From positions 1 through 21,167 of the IMG/VR virus record IMGVR_UViG_3300000553_000392: 21,167 nucleotides of DNA; one strand, written 5' to 3'. The notes under the pieces are model-generated. The model searched no databases. It was given only the letters and a program-made list of their open reading frames with translations, and was not told the DNA's origin. Position 1 is the first letter of the stretch. Each line of letters opens with the position of its first letter. The translations under genes and the position numbers were made by a program. Of the stretch, positions 2,564-15,793 are shown one piece after another. The stretch comes from a virus.

Positions 2564-3271
2564 ATGGATTACAATACATACGTCCAGCAGATTGCTACGA
2601 TGGCTGTGGTTCCTACCACTGATCCAAATTATCAGATCATTCTGCCTCAAATGATCTCATATGCTGAATTGCGTATGCAGCGTGACCTTGATTTTCTTTC
2701 CACCCAGATTAGCACGACGGCTTACTCGCTGACGGCTAATAGCGGTACGTTTACAATTCCACAGACACAGTTTGTAACGACTGAGACGATGGAAGTTATC
2801 ACTGGATCGGGTGTATCATCGCCATTGTTGCCGGTGACCAAGGAATACATTCAAAATGTATACAGCAGCGGTTCAGCTACTGGATTGCCAGCCTACTACG
2901 CTGAATATGGTGGTGACGCTGCTACTACTGGTTACACATCTCAAATTATGGTTGTCGGCCCTATTCCTGATTCGTCTTATCAGGTTCGTTTGACGGGTAC
3001 AGTTCGTTCGGCTCCATTGTCGGCCACGAATACGCAGACATATATCTCTACTAATTTGCCAGATATGATGATTATGGCTTCCATGATCTATATTTCTGCA
3101 TATCAGCGCAACTTTGGCCGTATGTCAGATGATCCGCAGATGGCTCAAAGTTATGAGAGCCAGTATCAAGTTCTTCTTAGGTCTGCTCTGTCTGAAGAAA
3201 ATCGTAAAAAATATCAAGATGCAGCTTGGACTTCTTATTCTCAATCTCCTGTTGCTACCCCATCAAGGTAA
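2564..3271 (+). CDS. Head-tail adaptor protein (SU10 adaptor-like)
   Basis: A 235-residue protein. It has an N-terminal helix pair (YVQQIATMAV, then a YAELRMQRDLDF segment), a central beta-rich domain (about 50-150) and a C-terminal helical region (residues 165-220, with MIYISAYQRNFGR). This is the layout of the podophage adaptor family typified by phage SU10, whose members form a ring under the portal and connect it to the tail. Position supports this: the gp10-like stabilization protein follows, as expected for adjacent tail-stopper components, though an HNH gene now lies between them. The family match is from recalled pattern rather than alignment. Confidence 0.75.
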   Translation: MDYNTYVQQIATMAVVPTTDPNYQIILPQMISYAELRMQRDLDFLSTQISTTAYSLTANSGTFTIPQTQFVTTETMEVITGSGVSSPLLPVTKEYIQNVYSSGSATGLPAYYAEYGGDAATTGYTSQIMVVGPIPDSSYQVRLTGTVRSAPLSATNTQTYISTNLPDMMIMASMIYISAYQRNFGRMSDDPQMAQSYESQYQVLLRSALSEENRKKYQDAAWTSYSQSPVATPSR

Positions 3272-3275
3272 AAAA

Positions 3276-3938
3276 ATGGAAACAAAAATTTGCAATATTT
3301 GCAAAGAGATGAAATCATTGAACGATTTTTCATTAAATCGCTCAAGGAAAGATGGTCACCATTACAATTGCAAAAAATGTGATTTGAAAAAAGCAAAAGA
3401 TTGGTATCAATTAAACAAGGATACTGCAAAAACAAGATCAAAAATATATAGAGACAAAAACAAAGAAACTCATTTAGAAAGAGACAAAGATAGATATTAT
3501 CTCAATAGAGAAAATGAATTACAAAAAAGAAAACTGCATTATAATAAAAACAAGGATGTTATTATTAAAAAATCTAATGATTGGATTAGTGTCAATAGAG
3601 TAAAGCATAACTCATATATGAGAAATCATTATGAAAACAATAAGCCTTATTATAAAGTTCGTTCGGCGACACGTCGTGCTTTAAAAATCAATGCTACTCC
3701 ATTTTGGTTGTCTGCAATTCAATTAGCGCAAATTCAAGAGATATATGATATAGCTACAGCACGTTCTGTCCAAACCGGGGTAATTCACCATGTGGATCAT
3801 ATCCACCCATTACATGGCGATGGATTTAATGGTTTGCATGTACCATGGAATTTGCAAGTGATTACAAAATTTGAAAATCTTAGCAAGGGATGTAATGTTC
3901 CAATCCAAGATAACCATCTTTTTTGGAAGGCATCCTAA
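3276..3938 (+). CDS. Free-standing HNH endonuclease with zinc ribbon (HNH-2)
   Basis: A 220-residue protein starting at the ATG at 3276; the open frame runs further left but only through the adaptor gene. Order: N-terminal zinc ribbon (C6-x2-C9 and C32-x2-C35); a long Lys/Tyr/Asn-rich linker (about 40-130) with repeated DRYYLNREN- and LHYNKNKD-like units that probably bind DNA; then an HNH core with H171-H172, D174-H175, N192 in the VPWNLQVI segment, and N201. The gene is strongly AT-rich, in contrast to the adaptor and gp10 genes around it. It begins 5 bases after the adaptor stop, and its TAA overlaps the ATG of the gp10-like gene (TAATG). Confidence 0.85.
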   Translation: METKICNICKEMKSLNDFSLNRSRKDGHHYNCKKCDLKKAKDWYQLNKDTAKTRSKIYRDKNKETHLERDKDRYYLNRENELQKRKLHYNKNKDVIIKKSNDWISVNRVKHNSYMRNHYENNKPYYKVRSATRRALKINATPFWLSAIQLAQIQEIYDIATARSVQTGVIHHVDHIHPLHGDGFNGLHVPWNLQVITKFENLSKGCNVPIQDNHLFWKAS

Positions 3939-5980
3939 TGCCCCATAACACGATTAAGTTGAAGCCCGGCGTAGAAACCAACACCACATTGGCGTTAAAT
4001 GAGGCTGCTTATTCATCATCTGCTTTGATTCGTTTTTTGCCAGAACGTATGGGACTTGGCTTGGCTCAAAAGTTGGGCGGCTGGGTGGCTTACTATAATT
4101 CTGCTATTTCGTCTAAGACTCGTGCTCTTAAAGGTTGGGCTGATCTTAATGCCACGAATCACCTTGGTATCGGTGCTGAATCATCTTTAAGTGTTCTGAC
4201 AGGTAACAACCTAGTTGATATTACGCCTCAAATTACGACAACTAATCCAGCGCCAAACTTTTCAACGACGAGTGGCTCCAACACAGTTACTATTATTGAC
4301 GCTGGAATAACGTCATCTGTTTTGGATTATGTTGAGTTTGTAACGCCTGTATCAGTGGGTGGTTTAATTTTAACTGGCCCGTATTCTATCTATACGGCTG
4401 GTGGAACTACTTACACGATCAATGCAAGCGCGCTGGCAACATCTACGGTATCAAACGGTGGTGCATCCTATGCGTTTTCAACGACTAGCGGTTCATCAAT
4501 CATATCGGCAACATTAAATAATCACGGTTATAATGTTGGTGATCAATTTTATGTTGGCGTTGCGACAACACTTGGTGGCCTTACTTTGTCCGGCCTGTAT
4601 ACCGTTCTTACCGTTCCAACGGTAAATACGTTTACGTTCTCCGCAGCCAATTCGGCTACTTCTACGGCTGGTCCTGTTTCCATCAACTCTGGCAATATCA
4701 GTTCTACTTTTTATATTGCTTTAGGCCCACAGCCTACGGGTACCGGCTTCGGTGTTGGTGGGTTTGGCACGGGTGGTTTTGGTGTTGGTACAACTCAACC
4801 ATCAACGCCCGGAACGCCAATAACGACAACGGACTGGACCTTGGATAACTTTGGGCAAGATTTAATTGCTTGTCCCGCTGGTGGTGCAATCTATTATTGG
4901 CAACCGGGTGGTCAACTTCAAAATGCTCAGATCATTGGCGGCAATGGTCCATTAGTTAACAGTGGCATTTTCGTTGCTATGCCAGAGCGTCAAGTCATTG
5001 CATACGGATCATCATTCACACTCGCGCCTGATCCACTATTGGTTCGGTGGTCTGATATTGAAGATTTTACTGTATGGAATGCCACGCCAACGAATCAGGC
5101 AGGTTCATATCGCATTCCTACTGGTTCTAAGATTGTTGCTGGTATTCAAGGGCCACAGCAAGGTTTGCTTTGGACTGATCTTGATCTGTGGGCCATGCAA
5201 TATGTTGGCGCACCATTCGTCTATGGCTTCAATAAAATTGGATCAAACTGCGGCGCTATATCGCGTCACTGCATTGGCCAACTTAATGGTGCTATCTTTT
5301 GGATGAGCCAAAAGCAGTTCTTTATGTCAATGGGTTCTGGCCCACAGAGTATCCCATGTCCAATTTGGGATGTTATCTTCCAGAACATTAATACGTCATA
5401 TCTTAATAAGGTATGTTGCGCTGTTAACTCTCAGTTCAACGAAGTAACTTGGTATTATCCATCGGCAAGTTCGACGGAGAATGACTCTTATGTCAAATAC
5501 AACACAGTCCTCCAACAGTGGGACTATGGTACTCTTGGCCGTACTGCTTGGATTGATCAATCTGTTCTTGGGCCTCCCATTGGTGCTGGCTCTGATAACT
5601 ATCTTTATCAGCACGAAATAGGAAATGACGCAGCAAGTGGAACTTCAACCACTGCTATGCTGTCTTCGTTCCAAACTGGTTTTTTCCAACTGAATGAGGC
5701 GGATAATTTGATTTTCATTGATCAAATTTGGCCAGACATGAAGTGGGGAACTTATAGCGGTACGCAGAACGCTACAGTTAAAATCACATTTTATGTGACG
5801 AACTACCCCGGCGATGCTGTGACGGCTTATGGTCCATATACCATGACACAGGCGACTGAATACATATCAGTCCGTATTAGGGCGCGTCTTATGTCAATTG
5901 CTGTATCATCTAACGATGTGGGTACTTTCTGGCGTCTTGGTGCGATTCGTTATCGTTACCAACTTGACGGAAAATTTTAA
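3938..5980 (+). CDS. P22 gp10-like packaged-DNA stabilization protein (tail hub)
   Basis: A 680-residue protein matching the Phage_stabilise family (P22 gp10), which plugs the head-tail connector and keeps packaged DNA inside. The N-terminus has the signature order IKLKPGVETN, then SSALIRF, then LAQKLGGWVAYY. The C-terminal two thirds keep recognisable segments such as LLWTDLDLWAM and a FWMSQKQFFM stretch. It is longer than P22 gp10 (about 470 residues), mainly because residues 108-246 hold two tandem beta-rich repeats and residues 268-300 are Gly/Thr-rich. I chose ATG 3938 over an in-frame upstream TTG because it follows GGAAGG and begins the conserved N-terminus. Confidence 0.85.
   Translation: MPHNTIKLKPGVETNTTLALNEAAYSSSALIRFLPERMGLGLAQKLGGWVAYYNSAISSKTRALKGWADLNATNHLGIGAESSLSVLTGNNLVDITPQITTTNPAPNFSTTSGSNTVTIIDAGITSSVLDYVEFVTPVSVGGLILTGPYSIYTAGGTTYTINASALATSTVSNGGASYAFSTTSGSSIISATLNNHGYNVGDQFYVGVATTLGGLTLSGLYTVLTVPTVNTFTFSAANSATSTAGPVSINSGNISSTFYIALGPQPTGTGFGVGGFGTGGFGVGTTQPSTPGTPITTTDWTLDNFGQDLIACPAGGAIYYWQPGGQLQNAQIIGGNGPLVNSGIFVAMPERQVIAYGSSFTLAPDPLLVRWSDIEDFTVWNATPTNQAGSYRIPTGSKIVAGIQGPQQGLLWTDLDLWAMQYVGAPFVYGFNKIGSNCGAISRHCIGQLNGAIFWMSQKQFFMSMGSGPQSIPCPIWDVIFQNINTSYLNKVCCAVNSQFNEVTWYYPSASSTENDSYVKYNTVLQQWDYGTLGRTAWIDQSVLGPPIGAGSDNYLYQHEIGNDAASGTSTTAMLSSFQTGFFQLNEADNLIFIDQIWPDMKWGTYSGTQNATVKITFYVTNYPGDAVTAYGPYTMTQATEYISVRIRARLMSIAVSSNDVGTFWRLGAIRYRYQLDGKF
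4259..4678 (+). repeat. Tandem protein-level repeat inside the gp10-like gene
   Basis: Residues 108-178 and 180-246 of the gp10-like protein align with each other. Both open with FSTTSGS, continue through a Tyr/Val-rich strand, then a GGL-(I/T)-L-(T/S)-G segment followed by a Tyr, and end in Ala/Ser/Thr-rich strands. The nucleotide copies have diverged, so this is an old duplication. It is probably a beta-sandwich or Ig-like domain inserted in the family fold. Confidence 0.65.
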
Positions 5981-5981
5981 T

Positions 5982-5987
5982 AGGAGG
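5982..5987 (+). promoter_or_regulatory. Ribosome binding site AGGAGG that points to an ATC start
   Basis: A full-consensus Shine-Dalgarno sequence. It lies two bases after the gp10-like stop and ends 5 bases before the ATC at 5993. No ATG, GTG or TTG follows at a usable distance in the open frame; the first is GTG at 6035, 47 bases away. An in-frame TAG at 5981-5983 rules out any start further upstream. Confidence 0.75.
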
Positions 5988-5992
5988 CTACC

Positions 5993-6340
5993 ATCGCATC
6001 TTTAGACGATATCCTAACTACCCAGAAAAACGGTGTGCAAGGCATCAACGCCTTGAACCACACGACGCAGAATCTTGCCGGAACAGTAAATACTTATGAA
6101 GTTTCTGCTGCGACATACTTCTCTACGCCGATTGGATGGGTTGCTAAAGTTAGTGTCATTGTAGCCGGAACCACTACTGGAACCATATACGATGCAAATT
6201 CAGTGGCTACAGCAGTAAATGGTGTTCGTCTGGCTATAATTCCAAATACTGTTGGAATTTACACTATTAATATGCCTGTCAATAATGGCATTGTTGTCAC
6301 TCCCGGAAGCGGCATGATTGTAGCCGTATCCTATAGTTGA
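5993..6340 (+). CDS. Small structural protein, probable ATC start codon
   Basis: A 115-residue protein if read from ATC 5993. The first residues after the start are ASLDDILTTQKNG, which I recognise as the normal N-terminus (preceded by Met) of a small protein that follows gp10-like genes in related podophages. The rest is Thr/Val/Gly-rich beta structure (NLAGTV, VIVAGTTTGTIYDA, IPNTVGIYTINMPV), as in head or tail decoration proteins. The AGGAGG at 5982-5987 is spaced for ATC. A conventional annotation would begin at GTG 6035 and lose 14 conserved residues. Either AUC really initiates here or a Met codon has been mutated or misread. Function as a virion component is inferred from position. Confidence 0.75.
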   Translation: MASLDDILTTQKNGVQGINALNHTTQNLAGTVNTYEVSAATYFSTPIGWVAKVSVIVAGTTTGTIYDANSVATAVNGVRLAIIPNTVGIYTINMPVNNGIVVTPGSGMIVAVSYS

Positions 6341-6347
6341 GGTCGTT

Positions 6348-6878
6348 ATGCCGTTAAATGCTGGCCATCAAAAAGATGTAGAAAAAACTTGCACAATTTG
6401 CGAGTCTACATTTTTTGCAGCTAGATGTCGGGCAGATGTAGCTAAATATTGTTCTCGAAGCTGTTATTATAAATCAATGGCTAAAAAGGGAACCGTTATC
6501 TTAAAATGTGATATATGCAGTAAAGAATATCGCCGCCCCCCATCTCACTCACACTACAAAACAAAAACATGCAGTTTGCTCTGTCGCGGTTTGGCGACTA
6601 GAACAGAAAAACCTATTTCTGGAGATTATCCATCAGTAAAATCATGGATGAAACGTAGAAATATGTTAAAATCTTGTATAAGGTGCAGCTATGATGAGCA
6701 CCCTGAAATATTAGTCATTCATCATGCTGATAGAGATCGAAGAAACAATGATTTGAGCAATTTAGAAATTCTATGCCCAAATTGTCATGCTTTGGAACAT
6801 TATTCTGAAAATAAGAAGGGATGGGGTCATGCCTCTACAAAAAGGCGCATCGCCAGCAACAATCTCAGCCAACATTAA
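6348..6878 (+). CDS. Free-standing HNH endonuclease with three Cys clusters (HNH-3)
   Basis: A 176-residue protein with three metal-binding units in a row: C15-x2-C18 with C35-x3-C39; C54-x2-C57 with C75-x3-C79; and the HNH core with C110-x2-C113, H125/H126, N138 and C143-x2-C146-H147. This fits a zinc-finger homing endonuclease. Its first residues (MPLNAGHQK) look like the start of the next virion gene (MPLQKGAS) rather than part of a nuclease, and the zinc-finger homology begins only after them. The C-terminal 16 codons overlap the next gene by 50 bases in another frame. The gene is AT-rich. An ideal GAGG site lies just upstream. Confidence 0.85.
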   Translation: MPLNAGHQKDVEKTCTICESTFFAARCRADVAKYCSRSCYYKSMAKKGTVILKCDICSKEYRRPPSHSHYKTKTCSLLCRGLATRTEKPISGDYPSVKSWMKRRNMLKSCIRCSYDEHPEILVIHHADRDRRNNDLSNLEILCPNCHALEHYSENKKGWGHASTKRRIASNNLSQH

Positions 6879-7419
6879 GGAAATGTTGGCAAATAAACAT
6901 CCACAGGATCAAGCCATAGCAGCTGCATTGAATGTTGCTCGTCCCAAGAAAGCATCTGGCGGTGATATTCCAGACCCGTTGACCAACTCAGACGTCCCGG
7001 ATCGTGCGGCGCATGATTCGCGTGCTCATGTTGGACCAATTCATGCCGCAGTGGCTGGTCGAACCGATCACCTTAATATGCACGTTCCGGCTGGATCATA
7101 TGTCATTCCGGCTGACATCGTGTCGGCATTAGGTGAGGGAAATACCGATGCAGGGCTTGATGTTCTGGATAGTCTTTGTCACGATCATAATTCAAATAGC
7201 GGAAATATGCGGTCTAAAAGTGATAAAAATAGTAATGACAGGTCTCTCGCGCCTATTGTTGCTGCTGGAGGGGAATATGTTATTCCTCCTAGTGTTGTCA
7301 CTTCAATTGGCGGTGGCGATATCGATCATGGCCATAATTTGTTGGACGATTTTGTTGTTTTGGCTCGCAAGGACTTAATAAAGACACTCAGTAAACTTCC
7401 CGGACCTCGTAAGGACTAA
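6829..7419 (+). CDS. Virion-associated protein with duplicated YVIP module
   Basis: A 196-residue protein. I chose the ATG at 6829 (MPLQKGAS) because this N-terminus, followed by a helix and an AIAAALNVARPKK segment, is typical of a widespread podophage protein. A KASGGD motif follows at 41-46. Two related modules lie at residues 87-114 and 145-173 (AGSYVIPADIVSALGEG and GGEYVIPPSVVTSIGGG), each ending in LD-rich helices. Between them is a Ser/Asn/Lys-rich linker. The GRTDHLNMHVPAGS segment is characteristic of such proteins. Function is unknown; its place between gp10 and the ejection proteins suggests a virion or assembly role. The upstream HNH gene overlaps its first 50 bases. Confidence 0.75.
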   Translation: MPLQKGASPATISANIKEMLANKHPQDQAIAAALNVARPKKASGGDIPDPLTNSDVPDRAAHDSRAHVGPIHAAVAGRTDHLNMHVPAGSYVIPADIVSALGEGNTDAGLDVLDSLCHDHNSNSGNMRSKSDKNSNDRSLAPIVAAGGEYVIPPSVVTSIGGGDIDHGHNLLDDFVVLARKDLIKTLSKLPGPRKD

Positions 7420-13484: not shown

Positions 13485-13849
13485 GCTGCGTCTGCCGCTG
13501 CCAACTGATTAGCTAAGTCAGACATAATCCTCAGTTCAGCAAAGCTACCATCTACCGGCTTTGCGAACTGAGCGGTGTGTGCTGACGTTGTGATCACATC
13601 ACGGTACAGATCGGGATTAAGGCGATCCTCACTGACCTTGGCTAACGATATACACATCATGATGATTGATACGTCGTGCGCCGTTACCTCTTTCTCAAGC
13701 ATTACAGAGGCCATCAGGGAAGCCTTCGTAATTGCTGGAACTGGATCACCATTTTTAACAGCGTTAGCCTCAGCGGCCTTCTGTGTGTGATCAATGAACT
13801 GACGCCAGTTCAGCGGGCCACTATAGTTCCGTTTAGCTTTTTCTTCCAT
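13481..13849 (-). CDS. Small phage protein, DUF6378-like
   Basis: A 122-residue protein. I chose the ATG at 13849 (MEEKAKRNYSG) because everything upstream in this frame lies inside the HNH-4 gene and looks like out-of-frame reading. The conserved part runs from about residue 40: ITKASLMASVMLEKEVTAH, then DVSIIMMCISLAKV, then LNPDLYRDVITTSAHTAQFA. This helical plan resembles the DUF6378 domain of phage nucleotide and DNA metabolism regions, whose function I do not know. It is the last gene of the leftward operon. Its stop overlaps that of the ejection protein on the other strand (TTAA), and a strong stem-loop lies inside its 3' part. Confidence 0.65.
   Translation of the reverse strand: MEEKAKRNYSGPLNWRQFIDHTQKAAEANAVKNGDPVPAITKASLMASVMLEKEVTAHDVSIIMMCISLAKVSEDRLNPDLYRDVITTSAHTAQFAKPVDGSFAELRIMSDLANQLAAADAA
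13530..13572. terminator. 15-bp stem-loop just beyond the late operon (putative 3' end or processing hairpin)
   Basis: Arms 13530-13545 and 13558-13572 pair over 15 base pairs with a single bulged A at 13538 and a 12-base loop at 13546-13557. It begins 46 bases after the stop codon of the last rightward late gene. Neither strand has a T-run after the stem, so it is not a classical intrinsic terminator. It could still end or protect the late transcript, or act in the leftward message, since it lies within the coding region of the last leftward gene. Confidence 0.55.
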
Positions 13850-14163
13850 TTTGAGTTCTTTCCATATGGGAGTGGGGTTTTTGATTCTTTCAAACCTAAA
13901 GTTGATGATTTCGCTCGTTTCGCTTTCGTTATCTGGCTCATGTCCTCCTTGGTTTTTTGGGTTGCACAGGCTTTGCACGTAAGACGTATATTTGATTCTT
14001 CGTCGGCTCCCGAAAGGCCAAGTGGTATAACGTGTTCGTAGATAAAGCCACCAACGAGCAACTTTGTTCCACAAATCATACATTTTCCCTTCTCACGTTC
14101 CCAAATCGTTAGTTTTTTTCGGGGCGATAGAGTTCCCCTTTTTGTCGTTTGTGAGTGTTCCAT
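13810..14163 (-). CDS. HNH endonuclease-like protein, atypical last ligand (HNH-4)
   Basis: A 117-residue protein from the ATG at 14163; an in-frame ATG at 14193 would add 10 residues. The HNH core is visible: C28-x2-C31, E43-H44 in FIYEHVIPLGLSG, N58 in the EESNIRLTC segment, and C63-x2-C66, then KTKED and a basic tail of the type seen in small phage HNH proteins (AKRAKSS). The His that usually follows the last Cys pair is Ala67, so activity may be reduced or another ligand used. Its last 40 bases overlap the start of the next gene, and its own first 71 bases are overlapped by HNH-5. It may be a homing nuclease or a resident DNA-metabolism HNH. Confidence 0.75.
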   Translation of the reverse strand: MEHSQTTKRGTLSPRKKLTIWEREKGKCMICGTKLLVGGFIYEHVIPLGLSGADEESNIRLTCKACATQKTKEDMSQITKAKRAKSSTLGLKESKTPLPYGKNSKWKKKLNGTIVAR

Positions 14164-14734
14164 GTGTTTTAAATCTCCATTTTGCACAATCATAATTCAA
14201 ATTTAACAATTCAGATGCTTCTACTAAACTTACTTTTTCACCATTTAAATCTACAATTGTGTTTCTTCTTGTATTTCTAGATTGCTGTTTAGGAGTAGCC
14301 CATCGACAGTTTCCTTTTTCATAATTTCCATCATTATTAATCCTATCTATTGAATGATGTTTTGATGGTCTTTTTCCCATATCAAAAAGAAACAACTCAA
14401 AATTATGCCTCCAATCATCTGAGACCTTAATTCCACGTCCACCATAATTTTCCCAATCTGGACTATTCGCATTAGTGCATCTATTTATTATGCGATTCCA
14501 TACGCTATATTCTTCAAGTTTTGATTTTCCATGAGTTGTCAATCTTTTGACGTTATTTTCTATTTTTAAACATCCACAAGATTTAGTTTTACCATTTTTT
14601 AAATGAATTCCCAAAACTTCTCGTGTTGTTCCGCACTCACATTTGCATACCCATGAATAATGAGTGTTTTTTCTTGGACCTTGAGATAGCACGACCCAGC
14701 GACCAAATTTTTCATTTACAAGATTTCTATGCAC
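14093..14734 (-). CDS. HNH endonuclease of the YGGRGI/SIDRI type with C-terminal helix-turn-helix (HNH-5)
   Basis: A 213-residue protein. I chose the GTG at 14734 because GGAG lies 6 bases before it; a GTG at 14746 lies upstream without a better site. Order: an N-terminal domain (NEKFGRWVVLSQG) with a Cys cluster (CKCECG and CGC, a possible zinc unit); the conserved core YSVWNRIINRCTN, then ENYGGRGIKVSDDW, then SIDRINNDGNYEKGNCRWAT; and a C-terminal HTH-like segment (EKVSLVEASELLNL) probably binding DNA. This is a common free-standing phage endonuclease family. The gene is AT-rich. Its last 20 or so codons read through the start of HNH-4 in another frame. A promoter with three repeats lies directly upstream. 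Confidence 0.85.
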   Translation of the reverse strand: MHRNLVNEKFGRWVVLSQGPRKNTHYSWVCKCECGTTREVLGIHLKNGKTKSCGCLKIENNVKRLTTHGKSKLEEYSVWNRIINRCTNANSPDWENYGGRGIKVSDDWRHNFELFLFDMGKRPSKHHSIDRINNDGNYEKGNCRWATPKQQSRNTRRNTIVDLNGEKVSLVEASELLNLNYDCAKWRFKTHGTLTNDKKGNSIAPKKTNDLGT

Positions 14735-14751
14735 GCAAATCTCCACAAAAA

Positions 14752-14831: not shown

Positions 14832-15284
14832 TCATTCATTGAAGGAAAAACCTTTTATCTCACGAAATTCTTCCCTTGGTATTAAGTAGCAAATTGCTTC
14901 GTAATCCCGTGGGTCATTTCTGTTTCGTTGACCAGATTTGCGTGATTTATATTGATTGTGAAGGATATCAAGGTAGCCAAAATAATCCGGCCACTTCACG
15001 ACCAATAACGCTGGCAACTTGGTTTCTTCAGATAGTTTCAGGCCATGATCTATGTCAGTCTTTGTGCAGATATAAGTGTCAAAGTCAGTGTATGGTTTGC
15101 TCTTGGTTTTAACCTCAATGAAGCCAACGATTTCACCATACCTCCGACACCTAAAGTCAAAAATGCTGTAATCACCCATCTTTTCATATTCAAAATTCCA
15201 CTGGGTGCTCAAGAACTCGATGATCTGATGTTCTCGATTTAAATCATGTGGAGTTTGATAAGATATAAAGGGTGCATCAATCAC
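14832..15284 (-). CDS. PD-(D/E)XK-type nuclease candidate
   Basis: A 150-residue protein starting at a GTG that overlaps the TGA of the upstream HNH gene (GTGA). The N-terminal half has the order expected of the restriction-endonuclease fold: an early helix with Glu (E18, REHQIIEFL), a beta hairpin with D43 in SIFDFRCRRYG, then E57-x-K59 in GFIEVKTKS. A Thr/Lys-rich helix (HGLKLSEETKLPALLVV) follows, ending in a hydrophobic strand. These fit the D...ExK active site that binds metal and cuts DNA. It sits in the recombination operon, so trimming or resolving DNA ends is plausible. I cannot place it in a named family. Confidence 0.6.
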   Translation of the reverse strand: MIDAPFISYQTPHDLNREHQIIEFLSTQWNFEYEKMGDYSIFDFRCRRYGEIVGFIEVKTKSKPYTDFDTYICTKTDIDHGLKLSEETKLPALLVVKWPDYFGYLDILHNQYKSRKSGQRNRNDPRDYEAICYLIPREEFREIKGFSFNE

Positions 15285-15793
15285 TGAAACTTGCTCCCCG
15301 CTCTATGAGAATTTTTTTCAATTGTAGATGTTAACCATCCCCAACTTTGGCCATTCTTAATATTGCTAACTGTTTGAAATTTAATATTATATATCTCCGC
15401 TATGTCTTTAAGTGTTTTCTTCATTTGATAAATTTCAATTACATCTTTTTCTGTAAGCTTGGCTTGAGGGTTATTTTCTCCTTTGTGTGATTTTCCGCGT
15501 GACCTATTTTTATCATGTCTATCTTTATTGTTATCTAAAACAGTTCCAGTTTTTAAATGCGCGGGGTTGCAGCAAGAAGGATTATCGCAGATATGCATTA
15601 CACATTCGCCATTTTCAATCGGCCCAATTGAATTTTTATAGACTTCTCTATGTGCTAATTTGGGCCTACCATTAATGCCAATAATTCCATATCCTTGGCG
15701 TGTTTTTGCAGCATTCCAAACCCAACATTTATCAGGTGTTAATATGGTAATTTTTTCCCATAATCTTAAAACTACTGGCTTATAAGGTGGCAT
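15281..15793 (-). CDS. HNH_3-type endonuclease with C-terminal helix-turn-helix (HNH-6)
   Basis: A 170-residue protein of the HNH_3 (PF13392-like) class. The core is AHREVYKNSIGPI, then H67 and C69-D70-N71 in VMHICDNPSC, then N76 and H79 in CNPAHLKTGT, followed by DNNKDRHDKNR. Residues 112-150 (LTEKDVIEIYQM, then IAEIYNIKFQTVSNIKNG) form a HTH typical of these enzymes and would read the target site. The gene is AT-rich. It fits exactly between two operon genes: its ATG overlaps the preceding stop (TAATG) and its TGA overlaps the next start (GTGA). This suggests insertion of a mobile endonuclease gene without disturbing the operon. Confidence 0.87.
   Translation of the reverse strand: MPPYKPVVLRLWEKITILTPDKCWVWNAAKTRQGYGIIGINGRPKLAHREVYKNSIGPIENGECVMHICDNPSCCNPAHLKTGTVLDNNKDRHDKNRSRGKSHKGENNPQAKLTEKDVIEIYQMKKTLKDIAEIYNIKFQTVSNIKNGQSWGWLTSTIEKNSHRAGSKFQ

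Follow-up and report, generated by a model that had tools for sequence, protein, structure and literature searches.

Start codons other than ATG, GTG, and TTG that are conserved among relatives are known but rare. In sigR of Streptomyces, a GTC start behind a conserved AGGAGGTG keeps the protein at a low level, and canonical codons cause its overproduction (PMC5472188). infC starts with ATT in E. coli and with ATC in Streptomyces (PMC5472188), and IF3 discriminates against non-canonical triplets (PMC4611024). Among phage homing endonucleases, mobE of T4 is a free-standing HNH gene whose start overlaps the nrdA stop as UAAUGA (PMC2988022), and the HNH-AP2 ('IPA-HNH') enzymes combine an N-terminal HNH with a C-terminal AP2 domain (PMC10448857).

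The window (the whole stretch of 21,167 nt of freshwater phage DNA analysed here) contains a small predicted virion gene that appears to start at the very rare codon AUC. This gene resembles sigR and infC in its conserved non-canonical start, and sigR also in its strong conserved Shine-Dalgarno sequence (PMC5472188). In contrast to both, it is a predicted virion gene of a phage and sits where endonucleases insert, uses mostly AUC with ACG, AUA, and GUC variants, and is a candidate for IF3 repression only by analogy. As in mobE (PMC2988022), an endonuclease gene lies between two genes and, in the sense alleles, its start overlaps the upstream stop. However, the insertion is exactly at the start codon of the neighbor, which is swapped for a non-canonical one, and antisense forms with an open opposite strand occur. 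The inserted endonucleases share the domain order of the HNH-AP2 enzymes (PMC10448857); all 12 relatives from cultured phages that were examined are in the sense orientation, whereas eight distinct representatives at this site are antisense. Of the 116 canonical alleles among the matches listed, 99 have a start that shares one base with the upstream stop (TAATG-type), the geometry of termination-reinitiation coupling; what differs from ordinary coupling is that bridge ORFs appear to maintain it across mobile inserts. In the limited literature searched, we found no tie between a non-canonical start and endonuclease insertion, no such exclusion of canonical starts, and no stop-free antisense strands.

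The start-codon junction in the window

Across the junction, the sequence is GGA AAA TTT TAA TAG GAG GCT ACC ATC GCA TCT TTA GAC GAT, with the following features.

3938-5980, + strand: upstream gene, virion structural protein (PHROG 3287)
5978-5980, + strand: TAA stop of the upstream gene
5981-5995, + strand: 15-nt module TAGGAGGCTACCATC at the homing endonuclease insertion site, replacing the overlapping ATG of uninterrupted alleles
5981-5983, + strand: TAG in frame with ATC, overlapping AGGAGG
5982-5987, + strand: perfect Shine-Dalgarno sequence AGGAGG, 5 nt 5' of the start codon
5988-5992, + strand: spacer CTACC between AGGAGG and ATC
5993-5995, + strand: predicted ATC start codon, conserved and non-canonical
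5993-6340, + strand: gene of the small predicted virion protein
6035-6037, + strand: in-frame GTG, rejected as a start; GTT, GTC, or GTA in 25 of 31 module alleles

Translation from ATC gives IASLDDILTTQKNGV..., a protein of 115 amino acids with its stop at 6340. AGGAGG-N5-ATC occurs once in the window, against 0.09 expected from shuffles. An earlier note on this DNA had pointed out the AGGAGG, the TAG overlapping it, and GTG 6035 as the first in-frame ATG, GTG, or TTG after ATC; these positions are exact.

The relative of the upstream gene in MW202675 is annotated as 'phage stabilization protein'. The AlphaFold2 model of the small protein (pLDDT 88) consists of an N-terminal helix and a seven-strand beta domain. 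Searches of PDB profiles, PHROG, and Pfam gave it no name, and a fold search with the model matched a related, uncharacterised viral protein (TM 0.92) and, weakly, nucleoplasmin-like beta-sandwiches. In the alignment of the family, a nearly invariant short N-terminus, ASLDDILTTQKNGV, is followed by C-terminal domains that differ widely, which suggests an anchor carrying exchangeable tips. The small gene, which comes after a gene resembling P22 gp10, may encode a minor virion part. It lies where the P22 gene order has the tail needle gene, and few copies per virion would fit this position. By position it may correspond to gp26; its model, a helix and a beta domain, has no named relative.

Conservation and mobility of the AGGAGG-N5-AUC module

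The earlier note had also described the N-terminus after ATC as normal for related podophage proteins and had proposed an alignment with homologues. In the 54 homologous loci obtained by the related-locus search, the codon before ASLDDIL or its variants was ATG in 27, ATC in 17, GTG in 8, and TTG in 2, which bears out this description. We pooled these loci with an IMG/VR scan on the family N-terminus and obtained at least 143 distinct alleles. Among the matches listed, at least 116 alleles have a canonical start at the same place or one codon earlier, at least 26 have ATC, and at least one has ACG. All 27 non-canonical alleles among these matches carry AGGAGG 5 nt before the start.

Scanning IMG/VR for AGGAGG-N5-any codon-GC within the family yielded 69 contigs with 33 distinct alleles, which are related sequences rather than independent trials: 29 have ATC, two have ACG, and ATA and GTC occur once each. 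None of these 33 alleles has ATG, GTG, or TTG as codon 1. A separate scan for the pattern with ATG, GTG, or TTG gave seven matches, none of them in the family, and a family search for canonical starts preceded at 3-12 nt by AGGAGG returned, in distinct form, only L145/L282, at a spacing of 6. In the family, a non-canonical codon and AGGAGG 5 nt ahead of it always occur together. The 58 matches of the right pattern include chance ones; as a rough control, the variant with a 3-nt instead of a 4-nt spacer gave 10 unrelated chance matches. The module is common to alleles with different downstream domains (82 to about 200 amino acids). Its spacers are alike, mostly CTRCC-like, and AGGAGG and the 5-nt spacing are constant while adjacent bases vary. 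A scan of genome contigs found no module; the family N-terminus occurs in a few MAG contigs, all with a canonical start. Elsewhere in the family contigs, no gene has a convincing start of this kind.

These results indicate that the ATC start is a conserved arrangement, neither an error nor a lone mutation. One suggestion of the earlier note, a mutation rescued by a perfect ribosome binding site, is not supported here: the combination is fixed across the 33 alleles and several downstream domains. Gene callers restricted to ATG, GTG, and TTG truncate or miss such genes, and would mis-start this one in dozens of contigs.

On a tree of the last 200 residues of the upstream gene, the module requires 25 changes (16 forced by well-supported branches), against 27 for shuffled labels. 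The module is thus as scattered as by chance, and therefore it moves often. In close module/canonical pairs (seven, some sharing members), divergence reaches 19% over codons 2-6 and 11% over the final 30 nt of the upstream gene, vs 3.8% and 3.4% further out. Between canonical pairs, the corresponding values at the junction are 0% and 2.5%. The divergence spike, which might reflect co-conversion of the flanks, is compatible with short-tract repair around a break, few of the seven pairs being independent.

Endonuclease inserts and bridge ORFs

The gap from the upstream stop to codon 1 in module alleles is 9-17 nt (12 nt in the window), 23-144 nt, or 506-558 nt. The long gaps contain an HNH_3-AP2 homing endonuclease gene, with profile matches of E 3e-10 and 7e-13 for HNH_3 and of E 2.5e-7 and 3e-4 for AP2, below Pfam's cut-off. 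Endonuclease genes are present at this site as follows.

Sense endonuclease, module alleles: L186, L260, L278
Antisense endonuclease, module alleles: L069, L077, L078, L096, L120, L123, L217, L239
Antisense endonuclease, canonical-start lineages: L145, L211, L214

L278 and L212 are near-identical on both sides of the insert of L278, which begins directly behind TGATG|G and terminates in ...AGGAGGCTTCCATC|GC; the two differ in the insert, codon 1, and adjacent synonymous changes. L077 likewise has a near-identical uninterrupted counterpart, L026. In the sense alleles, the endonuclease starts at or beside the old overlapping start. Judged from these alleles, the module lies at an insertion site of HNH-AP2 homing endonucleases, which some alleles keep and of which others would retain remnants. 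The 15-nt block in the window is most likely such a remnant, the direction of change being what we infer. Neither the insertion site nor this origin of the block, nor the fact that inserts are kept translatable, could be seen by the earlier note. The endonuclease-bearing lineages L145/L282, L211, and L214 use ATG with other Shine-Dalgarno sequences, and therefore insertion does not necessarily lead to a non-canonical start.

In L069 and its relatives, the antisense endonuclease has in its leader, some 20-40 nt 5' of ATC, a near-perfect inverted repeat, ATGTCATCT-C-AGATGACAT, and a TTGACT hexamer lies beside it on the antisense-endonuclease strand. These elements may be the promoter/operator of the antisense endonuclease.

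Wherever the insert exceeds 17 nt, an ATG or GTG that overlaps the upstream stop or lies within 2 nt of it opens a frame, and this frame crosses the whole insert. Among module or insert-bearing alleles with a resolved upstream stop, the stop of the bridge frame falls at -28 to +14 relative to codon 1, in many cases at -12, where it is the TAG overlapping AGGAGG. In insert-bearing relatives, the bridge ORF or the sense endonuclease often ends at the counterpart of TAG 5981-5983. For antisense endonucleases, the bridge is a frame of 177-182 codons on the opposite strand. Its codons are always in register with those of the endonuclease, so that stops in the bridge would come from TTA, CTA, or TCA codons of the endonuclease.

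We counted these codons in eight antisense representatives with the insert between the upstream gene and the small virion gene (L069, L077, L120, L217, L239, L145, L211, and L214). None of their 151 Leu/Ser codons is TTA, CTA, or TCA, whereas the three genes inserted here in the sense orientation use them for 18 of 66 (P 8e-11 in a Fisher test, or 5e-9 when each column contributes its distinct codon states); because the endonuclease genes are related, these P values are guides. Two TCA codons counted in L145 precede its start codon as taken here and are outside the gene. The 12 sense relatives of cultured phages have 89 of 262, one of them having 0 of 12. The remaining two frames of the bridge strand contain 4-13 stops each. 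Thus, the antisense endonucleases, free of TTA, CTA, and TCA, have had their opposite strand kept open. This avoidance was found after looking and was not predicted, and the sense/antisense comparison is its fairest test. It is evidence that translational selection can shape the unread strand of a selfish gene. Every insert type found at the site appears to let ribosomes read across to the small virion gene; the bridge ORFs could serve instead to prevent Rho-dependent polarity.

Probable expression from AUC and possible reasons for a weak start

Termination-reinitiation at AUC, 3' of the perfect Shine-Dalgarno sequence, is the likely route of expression of the small gene, with the weak codon keeping its output low and coupled. 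In the ancestral state, an ATG or GTG start would have overlapped the stop of the upstream gp10-like gene (TAATG), and through this overlap the small gene would have been translationally coupled to it. HNH-AP2 endonuclease cassettes would insert exactly at the start codon. The old start would then open an ORF crossing the insert (the endonuclease itself in sense inserts, the open opposite strand in antisense ones, or a mini-ORF in remnants), and the small gene would restart at the far end on AGGAGG-N5-AUC, rarely ACG, AUA, or GUC. Ribosomes ending translation of the upstream gene or the bridge ORF near the Shine-Dalgarno sequence could reinitiate at AUC. By analogy with known genes, the non-canonical codon, discriminated against by IF3, may stop the strong Shine-Dalgarno sequence from driving excess independent initiation, and output would thus be low and bound to upstream translation. 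In the lineage of the window, the insert would have been lost, leaving the upstream stop 15 nt before AUC. Initiation at AUC is expected to be weak, and therefore ill-suited to an abundant virion protein. The role in lowering expression that the earlier note had raised for AUC is plausible. The alleles with ATG overlapping the stop, ATC with an insert, and ATC without one form a natural series for testing the purpose of non-canonical starts.

A broader proposal, which we hold tentatively and at somewhat under even chances, is a 'translational relay': a cassette inserting at a start codon gives the victim gene a new Shine-Dalgarno sequence and a weak start, an antisense cassette keeps its opposite strand stop-free for ribosomes, and the weak start locks the gene to the coupling or makes it immune to re-cutting.

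Immunity to homing by itself is a rather unlikely reason for AUC. ATG|GCN would be the cleavage site or part of it, AUC, ACG, AUA, and GUC would be kept for destroying it, and AGGAGG would merely compensate for the forced weak start. Consistent with this are the insertion exactly at the start codon, the small set of differences between L278 and L212, the rise in divergence at the junction over about 3.5% further out as short-tract repair predicts, the frequent movement of the module on the upstream-gene tree, and insert-free module alleles that have never gone back to ATG. However, the endonuclease-bearing lineages with ATG are difficult to reconcile with it, the canonical GTG and TTG starts of uninterrupted alleles would alter the cleavage site too, and the close pairs are just seven and partly share members.

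Simple hitch-hiking is less probable still: a cassette end that happened to carry AGGAGG-N5-ATC would have been spread by homing and recombination, with AUC tolerated rather than selected. The similar spacers and the movement of the module as a unit would be explained in this way. In contrast, codon 1 has changed to ACG, ATA, and GTC and never to ATG, GTG, or TTG, although ATC to ATG is a single step, and AGGAGG with its 5-nt spacing stays fixed among variable adjacent bases.

ATC 5993 is predicted to be the real initiation codon, as the earlier note had proposed, from the conserved module and from selection on the N-terminus: pN/pS of codons 2-13 is 0.12 with the module and 0.118 without it, that is, equal purifying selection. 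Initiation at GTG 6035 with an untranslated ATC region is very improbable. GTG 6035 is the first canonical in-frame codon, but it is present at codon 15 in only six of 31 module alleles, has no Shine-Dalgarno sequence on its 5' side, and as a start would delete the nearly invariant N-terminus. A -1 frameshift from a leader ORF is not needed, because leader frames differ among alleles and are absent in the window. No phage-coded tRNA that might explain the codon was found in the window or in 34 module loci.

A sequencing or assembly error of ATG is a negligible prospect, since the junction is identical in four other IMG/VR contigs (L002-L005) and ATC occurs in 29 distinct alleles, and nothing found favours it. 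Equally negligible is a self-splicing intron joining ATG to GC: excision of the long inserts would restore ATGGC, but the same module accompanies inserts of 9 to 558 nt (9-53 nt inserts included), those of 9-25 nt cannot be introns, and the 9-25 nt alleles, including the window, no longer contain an ATG that could be joined.

Further HNH-like or endonuclease VII-like genes are located in the window at 1597-2052, within 3114-3938, and at 6348-6878 (all three tested with PHROGs/Pfam), and at 13810-14193, 14093-14746, and 15281-15793 (judged by eye). The genes with ends at 2052 and 3938 overlap the canonical ATG start of the next gene, and the HNH gene at 6348-6878, just 3' of the small virion gene, overlaps the gene at 6829-7419 (MPLQKGAS..., ATG 6829) by about 50 bases.
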